From assembly GCF_003032475.1 (NCBI RefSeq), contig NZ_CP028369.1, forward strand, positions 5,456,001-5,520,000: a DNA stretch of 64,000 nucleotides, written 5' to 3'. Source of the stretch: Streptomyces sp. P3 (GTDB lineage Bacteria > Actinomycetota > Actinomycetes > Streptomycetales > Streptomycetaceae). Shown here in pieces: positions 12,132-18,090 of this stretch; position 1 is the first letter of the stretch, and the number at the start of each line of letters is the position of its first letter. Made by a program: the position numbers and the translations under genes. A model generated the notes under the pieces. It had not been told where the DNA came from. It saw only the letters and a program-made list of their open reading frames with translations, and did not search any database.

Positions 12132-13337
12132 TCAGGTGGCTGCGATGAGCTTCAGCTCGGGGTGGGCCGTGCCGCCGGCGATCGCCGTGGACGACACGTG
12201 GGAGACGACCCGCTCGTCGACCGGGTCGTTCGCCGGGTCGTCGTGCACGACGAGGTGCTCGTACGTCGTGGCGCGCTGGGCCGGTACCCGGTCCGCCGCC
12301 CGCATGAGATGGATCAGTTCGAGCAGGTTGGAGCGGTGCTTGGCGCCGGCCGAGGAGACGACGTTCTCCTCCAGCATGATCGAGCCGAGGTCGTCGGCGC
12401 CGTAGTGAAGGGAGAGCTGGCCGACCTCCTTGCCCGTCGTCAGCCAGGAGCCCTGGATGTGCCTCACGTTGTCGAGGAACAGGCGGGCGACCGCGATGAT
12501 CCGCAGGTACTCGAACTGTGTGGCCTGCGTCTGGCCCTTGAGGTGGTTGTTCTCGGGCTGGTACGTGTACGGGATGAAGGCGCGGAAGCCGCCCGTGCGG
12601 TCCTGCACGTCACGGATCATCCGCAGGTGCTCGATGCGTTCGGCGTTGGTCTCGCCGGTGCCCATCAGCATGGTGGACGTCGACTCGACGCCCAGTTTGT
12701 GCGCGGTCTCCATGATCTCCAGCCAGCGCTCGCCGGACTCCTTGAGCGGGGCGATCGCCTTGCGCGGCCGGGCGGGCAGCAGCTCGGCGCCGGCGCCCGC
12801 GAAGGAGTCGAGGCCGGCCGCGTGGATCCGGGTGATGGCCTCCTCCACGCCCACCTTCGAGATCCGCGCCATGTGCTCGACCTCGGACGCGCCCAGCGAG
12901 TGGATCACCAGCTGCGGGAACGCCTGCTTGATGGCGGAGAAGTGCCGCTCGTAGTACTCGACGCCGTAGTCCGGGTGGTGGCCGCCCTGGAACATGATCT
13001 GGGTGCCGCCGAGCTCGACGGTCTCCGCGCAGCGGCGCAGGATGTCGTCGAGGTCGCGGGTCCAGCCCTTGGCCGTGTCCGTGGGTGCCGCGTAGAAGGC
13101 GCAGAACCTGCACGCCGTGACGCACACGTTGGTGTAGTTGATGTTCCGCTCGATGATGTACGTCGCGATGTGCTCGGTTCCCGCGTACAGACGACGGCGT
13201 ACGGCGTCGGCGGCGGCGCCCAGCGCGTGCAGCGGGGCGTCGCGGTAGAGGTCGAGAGCCTCTTCGGGGGTGATCCGCCCACCGGCGGCGGCACGGTCGA
13301 GAACGGACTGGAGGCGGTGTTGCGGAGCTCGGGGCAT
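12132..13337 (-). CDS. mqnC: Cyclic dehypoxanthine futalosine synthase MqnC
   Basis: 401 aa radical-SAM enzyme with the [4Fe-4S] motif CVTACRFC (Cys72, 76, 79). It matches MqnC throughout (IIERNINYTNVC near the cluster; QGGHHPDYG, where a menaquinone-pathway cyclase is expected). MqnC cyclises dehypoxanthine futalosine, the step before MqnD. The ATG gives the normal length; an open frame continues upstream but is the shadow of mqnA. The gene lies 35 nt after mqnA. Housekeeping mqn genes in Streptomyces are scattered among primary-metabolism genes, so this PKS-embedded copy is probably dedicated to the cluster (inference). Confidence 0.93.
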   Translation of the reverse strand: MPRAPQHRLQSVLDRAAAGGRITPEEALDLYRDAPLHALGAAADAVRRRLYAGTEHIATYIIERNINYTNVCVTACRFCAFYAAPTDTAKGWTRDLDDILRRCAETVELGGTQIMFQGGHHPDYGVEYYERHFSAIKQAFPQLVIHSLGASEVEHMARISKVGVEEAITRIHAAGLDSFAGAGAELLPARPRKAIAPLKESGERWLEIMETAHKLGVESTSTMLMGTGETNAERIEHLRMIRDVQDRTGGFRAFIPYTYQPENNHLKGQTQATQFEYLRIIAVARLFLDNVRHIQGSWLTTGKEVGQLSLHYGADDLGSIMLEENVVSSAGAKHRSNLLELIHLMRAADRVPAQRATTYEHLVVHDDPANDPVDERVVSHVSSTAIAGGTAHPELKLIAAT

Positions 13338-13372
13338 GGTGGTGGCCGGGCCTTTCCGGTGGCGTGTGTCGT

Positions 13373-14272
13373 TCAGGGGGCGAGGGGACCGAGCAGCCGG
13401 ACGGCGACGTCGGGCGGGAAGCCCTCGTCGCCGCCGCCGACCCGGCGCGCGAATTCGGCGATGCCGGCGAGCTGTTCCTCGCCGAGACTGAAGTCGAGGG
13501 CCGTGGTGTAGTAGCGCTCGAGCGTCGCGGCGTCGAACTCCTCCCACTGCGCGGCCTGTTCGCAGACCTTCGCCACCTCCGCCAGGGACAGGTCCCGTGA
13601 GGCCAGCAGATCGGCGTGGACCTGGCGAACGAGCTCGGGTTCCCGGGTCAGGAAGTCGCGGCGCGCGGCGAACACGGCGAACACGAAGGGCAGCCCCGTC
13701 CAGTCCTTCCACATCCGGCCCAGGTCGTGCACCTCCAGACCCATCCGGGGCGCCTCGTGCAGGGCCGCACGCAGAGCGGCGTCGCCGATGACCACCGCGG
13801 CCTTCGCCTCGGACATCATGGTGCGCAGGTCCGGCGGGCACACGAAGTAGTCGGGGTTCACCCCGACGCGCTCCGCCAGCAGCAGTTGCGCCAGACGGAC
13901 CGACGTGCGGCTCGTCGAACCCAGTGCCACCGGCTGCTCGTCCAGTTCCTCGAGCGGTACCTGGCTGATGATCAGACAGGACATGACGTCCCCGTCGCTG
14001 CCGACCGCGATGTCCGGCAGGGCGACCAGGTCGTCCGCATGCCGCAGGAACTCCAGCAGGCTGATCGGTCCCATGTCCAGATCGCCCGCGGCGAGCGCGT
14101 CGTTGAGGCCGTCCGGCGTGTCGGTGTGCAGATCCATGTCGAGGAGGGACCCGGTGCGGGCGAGTCCCCAGAACAGCGGCAGGCAGTTGAGGAACTGTAT
14201 GTGGCCCACACGGGGCCGGCGCCGGCGCACAGGCGTCGACCGCACTGTGTCGGGCGCGAGTTGCTGGGTCAT
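13373..14272 (-). CDS. mqnA: Chorismate dehydratase MqnA
   Basis: 299 aa; the start [17 protein letters not shown] is typical of MqnA, a periplasmic-binding-protein-fold enzyme that converts chorismate to 3-[(1-carboxyvinyl)oxy]benzoate, the first step of the futalosine pathway. The ATG at 14272 is preferred because GGAG lies just upstream; a TTG at 14281 extends the frame. It follows the thioesterase gene by 48 nt and precedes mqnC by 35 nt. Confidence 0.92.
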
Positions 14273-16846: not shown

Positions 16847-17229
16847 GGCCGGGAACCTCCTCGTTCAGTGCCAGGCGGCACCCGCGGTGACGGTGCGCAC
16901 GTGGCATGGGCGTGGTCTGCCGCGTCGACGGTCCCCAGGGCGCGACCGCGACGTTCCTGGGAACCGGTCGTTCCGCCCGGAGGCGGTCGGACGGCACTGT
17001 ACGGATCCGCACCACCTGGCGTCCCGTCGATCCGACCGGCCTCGACGGCCCGCGCAACCCGCCGACGATCCGGCGACCCGCGGGCCCCCGGCCGGACGGG
17101 CGGGCATCGACGCCGTGTCGGGTGGGCCCCCTCATCCTCGCGGAGGGCAGTCTGGGGAAAACCCCACATCTGCAACGGCTTTGCTGAGGGCATCTCTGCC
17201 GCACCACGGACAAGAAGGAAGGACCGGCC
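16847..17229. other. Divergent mqnE/mqnD promoter region
   Basis: 383 bp without a gene. It must hold the promoters for mqnE (leftward) and mqnD (rightward). The one clear element is the palindrome at 17152-17167. Short frames across this gap show no protein-family features. Confidence 0.7.
17152..17167 (+). promoter_or_regulatory. PimM-like operator upstream of mqnD
   Basis: CTGGGGAAAACCCCAC matches 14 of 16 positions of CTVGGGAWWTCCCBAG, the operator recalled for PimM-family PAS-LuxR regulators. It lies 63-78 nt before the mqnD start, where a -35 region would be expected. Confidence 0.6.
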
Positions 17230-18090
17230 ATGACGGCGTCCCTGACCCTCGCGCACTCGCCCTGCCCCAACGACACGTTCGTCTTCCACGCCTGGACCGA
17301 GGGGCTGCTTCCCGACGCGCCCGAAACACAGCTCACCCTCGCCGACATCGACATCACCAACGGCCTCGCCGGACGCGGTGAACTGGACGTCCTGAAGGTC
17401 TCCTACGGCGTGCTGCCGCACATCCTCGACGACTACGCGCTGCTGCCCTGCGGCGGCGCCCTGGGGCACGGCTGCGGCCCCCTCGTCCTGGTGGCAGAGC
17501 CCGGCGACCCGGCCGCCCTGGTCGGCGCCCGCGTCGCGGTGCCCAGCACGACGTCCACGGCCTACCTGCTGTTCCGGCTGTGGGCAGCCGACGCGATCCC
17601 GGAAGGCGTCGGCGAGGTCGTCGTCCTGCCGTTCCACGAGATCATGCCCGCCGTCCGGGACGGCGCCGTCGACGCCGGACTCGTCATCCACGAAGCTCGT
17701 TTCACCTACGGGCGCTACGGTCTGCACTGCACGGCCGACATGGGCGAGGAGTGGGAGAAGCGCACCGGACTGCCCATCCCGCTGGGCGCGATCGTCGCCC
17801 GCCGCTCCCTGGGGGAGCCCATGCTGCGCAGGCTCACCGACACGGTCCGTGCCTCCCTCCGCGCGGCCTGGGACAACCCGCACGCATCCCGCGCCCATGT
17901 CCTACGGCACGCCCAGGAGATGGACCCGGACATCGTCGATCAGCACATCGGCCTGTACGTCAACGAGTTCACCGCCGCACTCGGTGAGGACGGCCTGCAC
18001 GCCGTGCGCACCCTCCTGGACGGCTCGGCCGAGCTCGGCCTCCTGCCGGGCGTCGCAGCGAGCGCACTGGACATGACCATCCGCCTGTGA
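17230..18090 (+). CDS. mqnD: 1,4-dihydroxy-6-naphthoate synthase MqnD
   Basis: 286 aa. The start LTLAHSPCPNDTFVFHAW is the MqnD hallmark, followed by KVSYGVLPHIL and VIHEARFTYG. It has the periplasmic-binding-protein fold and forms 1,4-dihydroxy-6-naphthoate from cyclic dehypoxanthine futalosine. The start has GAAGGA upstream. It is the only mqn gene on the plus strand and runs toward the PKS genes. Its product is the probable branch point between menaquinone and this cluster's metabolite. Confidence 0.94.
   Translation: MTASLTLAHSPCPNDTFVFHAWTEGLLPDAPETQLTLADIDITNGLAGRGELDVLKVSYGVLPHILDDYALLPCGGALGHGCGPLVLVAEPGDPAALVGARVAVPSTTSTAYLLFRLWAADAIPEGVGEVVVLPFHEIMPAVRDGAVDAGLVIHEARFTYGRYGLHCTADMGEEWEKRTGLPIPLGAIVARRSLGEPMLRRLTDTVRASLRAAWDNPHASRAHVLRHAQEMDPDIVDQHIGLYVNEFTAALGEDGLHAVRTLLDGSAELGLLPGVAASALDMTIRL

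Follow-up and report, generated by a model that had tools for sequence, protein, structure and literature searches.

A complete second set of futalosine-route genes in a macrolide polyketide synthase cluster of Streptomyces sp. P3, probably a dedicated naphthoate supply

The stretch of DNA analysed (the window) comprises 64,000 nucleotides, positions 5456001-5520000 of the single 9,851,971-base contig of Streptomyces sp. P3 (genome G000), and covers part of a macrolide polyketide synthase (PKS) cluster. Its main features are given below in window coordinates, with family matches where these were obtained. Gon names refer to the PM100117/118 (gon) cluster of Streptomyces caniferus GUA-06-05-006A (PMC4763440).

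1..6306, plus strand: putative naphthoate PKS, C-terminal half; the whole gene (genome 5449788-5462306) encodes CAL-ACP and two KS-AT-DH-KR-ACP modules
6296..7330, plus strand: KSIII-like protein, GonS-like (PF08541)
7582..10188, minus strand: AMP-ligase with PKS dehydratase-like part, GonSL-like (PF00501, PF21089)
10199..11053, minus strand: ABC transporter permease (PF01061)
11050..12039, minus strand: ABC transporter ATPase, DrrA type (TIGR01188, 361 bits)
12132..13337, minus strand: MqnC, radical SAM cyclase (NCBIfam TIGR03699, 452 bits, cut-off 428)
13373..14281, minus strand: MqnA, chorismate dehydratase (PF02621, 243 bits; 71% to housekeeping MqnA)
14321..15082, minus strand: type II thioesterase (PF00975, 190 bits)
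15243..15590, minus strand: ferredoxin (PF13459)
15683..16846, minus strand: MqnE, aminofutalosine synthase (TIGR03700, 541 bits, cut-off 435)
17230..18090, plus strand: MqnD, 1,4-dihydroxy-6-naphthoate synthase (PF02621, 242 bits; 67% to housekeeping MqnD)
18371..28495, plus strand: macrolide PKS, two modules; GonP3 counterpart by its dead first DH
28558..38076, plus strand: macrolide PKS, two modules
46602..47936, minus strand: BAHD-type acyltransferase, HSLAD (PF02458)
51093..52340, plus strand: glycosyltransferase (PF21036/PF06722)
56080..57303, plus strand: glycosyltransferase (PF06722)
58941..60320, plus strand: BAHD-type acyltransferase, HSVVD (PF02458)
60438..61616, minus strand: MetK, SAM synthetase, second copy (TIGR01034, 539 bits)
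61761..62297, minus strand: nucleosidase, not of the MqnB family (NF004168, 203 bits, cut-off 129)

An earlier reading, made from the sequence alone, had placed MqnC, MqnA, MqnE and MqnD with a type II thioesterase between PKS genes at 12132-18090, and the family matches agree; the ferredoxin was absent from it. Eight genes in a row, from mqnE to the ligase gene, lie on the minus strand and are nowhere more than 160 bases apart, and mqnD stands on the plus strand, divergent from mqnE. In the KSIII-like protein (6296-7330) the active-site histidine region, judged by eye, seems to be absent (PINID), and the cysteine is present. The region is collinear with that of another genome of the genus, G013, between gene calls g003 (left) and g072 (right, 5519751), with a synteny break on the right only, and the left edge of the cluster was drawn by gene content at sugar genes near genome position 5371829. 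The idea that the cluster is a discrete mobile block was dropped: the left flank is collinear in G013 as well, 22 of its 29 gene calls having matches at 88-99%, so that only the right-hand break, after 5519751, stands. A gene run at 5347383-5362435, left of the cluster, is also collinear in G013; from its sequence starts we presume it to be a hydrogenase with a maturation set.

In the futalosine route, MqnA acts first, as a chorismate dehydratase; MqnE then attaches the adenosyl part of SAM. The aminofutalosine so formed is deaminated, after which MqnB removes the base, MqnC cyclises, and MqnD releases 1,4-dihydroxy-6-naphthoate. All five proteins, MqnA, B, C, D and E, are encoded in the cluster, MqnB outside the window; none of the 44 cluster gene calls was recognised as an aminofutalosine deaminase. 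The mqnA, mqnC, mqnE and mqnD genes, with the ferredoxin and thioesterase, lie among the PKS genes in addition to a housekeeping set: genome-wide profile searches gave four PF02621 genes and, above the respective cut-offs, two futalosine hydrolases and two MqnE proteins. The housekeeping mqnC, mqnA and mqnE are found at 1.408-1.426 Mb, and mqnD and mqnB adjoin at 2.610-2.612 Mb; the scattering of mqn genes outside clusters, assumed earlier for Streptomyces, thus holds in this genome. The sequence-only reading had proposed a search for a second mqn set and had counted sole copies as evidence against itself; a full set is present elsewhere, which rules out that the cluster genes are the only copies and removes this objection. 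Protein identity between cluster and housekeeping copies is 71% for A, 56% for B, 95% for C, 67% for D and 97% for E. Since neither MqnA nor MqnD matched an NCBIfam model, they were told apart by the nearest housekeeping copy, the 1.412 Mb one for MqnA (71%) and the one beside the housekeeping mqnB for MqnD (67%). Gene identities and the second full set are direct observations.

The cluster mqnB lies about 52 kb to the left of the window, at genome 5403188-5403982 (window -52812 to -52018; TIGR03664, 215 bits, cut-off 125), between rmlA, whose end it overlaps by 4 bases, and a PKS gene. The pathway, earlier called nearly complete, is therefore complete, the first wording having been too weak. 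Also claimed were a nucleosidase and MetK in the same cluster: both genes are real, and the nucleosidase (61761-62297) was rejected as MqnB, scoring 51 bits against the futalosine hydrolase cut-off of 125. A second MqnB was found in eight of nine genomes tested, namely G000, G013, G168, S. rishiriensis, S. sp. LUP30, S. pseudogriseolus, S. europaeiscabiei and S. monashensis, and in all eight it is placed between rmlA and the same PKS gene; the PKS gene preceding rmlA-mqnB is also present in seven, the contig of the eighth ending there. The ninth, S. kronopolitis, with a gon-like cluster, has a single mqnB. The other mqnB adjoins mqnD in 9/9 genomes. In the trees, cluster MqnB (8 of 17 rows) forms a clade apart from the housekeeping copies with support of 100/100, as does cluster MqnD (8 of 18 rows; 98/95). 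The gon mqnB is reported to lie outside the gon cluster (PMC4763440), and in the similar cluster of NEAU-S7GS2 the hydrolase gene is described as far away (PMC6746918). In the open-access literature searched, no account was found of such a cluster carrying an mqnB of its own, most subscription papers lying outside that search.

MqnE, unlike MqnB and MqnD, shows no split into cluster and housekeeping clades. Cluster mqnE groups with the housekeeping copy of the same genome in G168 and S. kronopolitis and is mixed in G000/G013, and the tree gives no support to MqnE as a sign of one ancient duplication. In G168 the cluster gene is 98.3% identical to its own housekeeping copy and 92.1% to the nearest other cluster, the pattern expected of gene conversion; the same may perhaps apply to S. 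kronopolitis (92.2 to its own housekeeping copy vs 87.5). Near-identity is also seen in metK, of which this genome has two copies, that of the cluster and a housekeeping one at genome 4881980-4883209. DNA identity between the two copies is 99.8% in G000, 99.8% in G013, 99.2% in S. rishiriensis and 99.6% in G168, that is, in four of the five genomes in which both could be assigned, and the near-identity ends at about the gene ends; S. europaeiscabiei is the exception, its cluster metK being 91.6% and 87.1% identical to its other two copies. The orthologous clusters differ by 3-4% between genomes, and their metK genes are 96.6% identical between G000 and G013. In the tree the pairs group by genome (100/100 in G000 and G168, 100/99 in G013). 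Because the copies are closer within a genome than between orthologous clusters, repeated gene conversion is the likely cause of their near-identity, which makes metK a testable case of conversion between primary and secondary metabolism. Of the eight genomes compared, cluster metK is flanked by the acyltransferase gene BAHD2 and the nucleosidase in five and by one such neighbour in two (contig fragments); neither was seen adjoining it in S. pseudogriseolus.

Eight PKS genes were found in the cluster. By domain matches and KS counts, the macrolide line consists of a KSQ loading module plus 2, and then 3, 5, 2, 2, 2 and 2 modules, giving 18 extension modules observed directly, the loading module being part of g034 and the terminal TE part of g040. 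A DH lacking its motif occurs in g052, the third module of g038 has a DH and no KR, and the last-but-one macrolide module has a methylmalonyl-type AT, methylmalonyl use being read from a single motif. In the eighth gene a CAL domain comes first; both of the two modules that follow carry methylmalonyl-type AT motifs, the DH motif is missing from the second, and the gene has no thioesterase. Full-length two-module relatives occur in G013 and G168. As in clusters of the PM100117 kind, the CAL-loaded PKS, the ligase protein and the KSIII are all present.

The sugar genes comprise an NDP-hexose 2,3-dehydratase, a GFO/IDH-type oxidoreductase, RmlA, a 4,6-dehydratase, a 3,5-epimerase, an RfbH-like dehydratase and an epimerase-family reductase, which we take to fit one 2,6-dideoxy and one 2,3,6-trideoxy sugar; there are two glycosyltransferases. 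The BAHD-type proteins match PF02458 with 167 and 177 bits and carry HSLAD and HSVVD, in keeping with the HxxxD motif of BAHD acyltransferases. They are the only PF02458 members in this genome; two were found in all eight genomes with this form of the cluster, one in S. kronopolitis, on a different contig, and none in 14 control genomes. The pair (46602-47936 and 58941-60320) is plant-like. Among the 44 cluster gene calls (g029-g072), none has a methyltransferase family among its listed matches; part of the genes was covered by matches to 1e-10 only, and rmlA and metK by NCBIfam only.

Within the genus, an MqnA match was obtained in 195 of 199 genomes and the cluster form (85-100% identity) in three of the 199, the next best reaching 76%. 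With the ligase protein as query, 298 relatives were obtained from 84,980 species genomes; of the best 80, which were examined further, five have mqn genes nearby. In two of these the stretch from mqnD to the ligase is complete, and in the other three contig ends interrupt it. The gene order is conserved in relatives, ligase and ABC genes included, as the contigs show directly.

We put at roughly 85% the probability that the cluster mqn set is a dedicated naphthoate supply for a naphthoquinone ester on the sugar of a 32-membered macrolide, and infer the reactions, chain length, transfer enzyme and product as follows. The five genes (A, C, E, D and B) would form a dedicated futalosine route from chorismate to 1,4-dihydroxy-6-naphthoate, which the PKS at 5449788-5462306 would load through its CAL domain and extend, in its two modules, by two propionate units. 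The resulting acid would form an ester with a sugar carried by a 32-membered polyol macrolactone, either by the KSIII-like protein or by a BAHD-type enzyme. MetK may supply the SAM that the route spends as carbon donor, and the nucleosidase may clear 5'-deoxyadenosine. Such a dedicated supply had been proposed from the sequence, and now agrees with the second full set, with the nearby CAL-loaded PKS, ligase-dehydratase and KSIII, and with mutants in gon: macrolide without naphthoquinone resulted when the mqnD homologue was lost, the mutants with this outcome being deletions of gonM4, gonMT, gonSL, gonS1 or gonS2 and a disruption of gonP8 (PMC4763440). The tight eight-gene run, the constant position of mqnB in eight genomes, the separate MqnB and MqnD clades, the KSQ loading module with 18 extension modules and the two glycosyltransferases also favour this reading. 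Against it, loss of gonM4 is reported only to have reduced the gon product, which means that housekeeping genes can make up for part of the loss (PMC4763440); the unsplit MqnE tree and the failure to find a deaminase among the 44 gene calls also count against it.

It is quite improbable that the extra mqn genes only raise menaquinone, for example during antibiotic production, and lie in the cluster by chance. The five proteins are indeed ordinary members of the menaquinone route, and housekeeping and cluster mqnE are intermixed; against this, no late menaquinone gene occurs among the cluster gene calls, the order with ligase and ABC genes is conserved, and the gon knock-outs described above affect the naphthoquinone (PMC4763440). 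That macrolide synthesis itself starts from naphthoate, with no sugar ester, as a CAL-loaded PKS without thioesterase among macrolide PKS genes might suggest, is very unlikely, since a KSQ loading module and a terminal TE belong to the macrolide line itself, and GonP8, a PKS of this type, is responsible for a side unit of its own (PMC4763440).

A bolder extension of the sugar-ester reading, offered tentatively and with the odds somewhat against it, is a self-sufficient module from SAM to naphthoate, in which the complete futalosine route, together with a SAM synthetase of its own and a nucleosidase whose substrate may be aminofutalosine or 5'-deoxyadenosine, would feed the two-module PKS to give an unmethylated naphthoquinonyl-dimethyl-hydroxypentenoate, joined by a bacterial BAHD-type enzyme to the sugar of the 32-membered macrolide; metK, and in some strains mqnE, would be homogenised with the housekeeping gene by conversion, primary and secondary metabolism evolving in concert. 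The borrowing of menaquinone-precursor genes for a macrolide naphthoquinone has been in print since 2016 and is therefore less surprising than the sequence-only reading held (PMC4763440). New here are mqnB, the second metK, the nucleosidase, two BAHD-type genes, the two-module naphthoate PKS, the 18 modules and the lack of any methyltransferase found. The borrowing, described once in detail for PM100117, recurs, and takes two or more forms, one of them self-contained from chorismate and SAM to naphthoate.

Like the cluster described here, gon has mqnA, mqnC, mqnE, mqnD, ferredoxin and type II thioesterase together, a CAL-PKS, a ligase-dehydratase protein and KSIII, two large LuxR-type regulators and one PAS-LuxR, and a KSQ-loaded PKS with an early dead DH, a DH-without-KR module and a methylmalonyl-type AT last but one (PMC4763440). 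The published gon gene table, however, is without mqnB, metK, nucleosidase and BAHD-type enzyme, all present here; gon has GonMT and a sugar C-methyltransferase, neither found among our 44 cluster gene calls, two KSIII and four glycosyltransferases against one and two, a one-module GonP8 (2408 aa) against the two-module PKS, and a GonSL carrying KR and ACP, for neither of which a match was obtained in the protein at 7582..10188 (PMC4763440). Moreover, gon has 20 modules and a 36-membered ring (PMC4763440); with two modules fewer, the ring here would be four atoms smaller, 32. That the cluster is simply the PM100117/118 cluster in another strain is scarcely credible: the mqn block, regulators and PKS quirks are shared, and the 18 modules already contradict it, as do mqnB and metK, the methyltransferase not found, the two glycosyltransferases and the two-module naphthoate PKS. 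Closer to gon is S. kronopolitis CGMCC 4.7323, in which mqnD, mqnE, ferredoxin, mqnC, mqnA, thioesterase, KSIII and CAL-PKS share one contig, which ends inside a PKS gene; its CAL-PKS, of 2398 aa, has the size of one-module GonP8 and not of the two-module PKS here, and its genome has one mqnB, beside the housekeeping mqnD, and one metK. Notonesomycin, from Streptomyces sp. A793, is alike in its 18 PKS modules, 32-membered ring, two deoxysugars and aromatic acid at C-37, the acid being 4-amino-3-hydroxybenzoate instead of the naphthoquinone predicted here (PMC7081687). Langkolide, from Streptomyces sp. Acta 3062, is a 32-membered macrolactone with a disaccharide bearing a 1,4-naphthoquinone at C-37 and an acetyl at C-23 (PMC10669366); no gene cluster for it was found in the open-access literature searched. 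By count, the 18 modules with the predicted 32-membered ring, the two glycosyltransferases and the acyltransferases would be compatible with it (PMC10669366). The predicted product is accordingly a 32-membered, langkolide-like macrolide, and the locus provides a candidate cluster for langkolide-type antifungals, pointing to genes for deletion and expression work.
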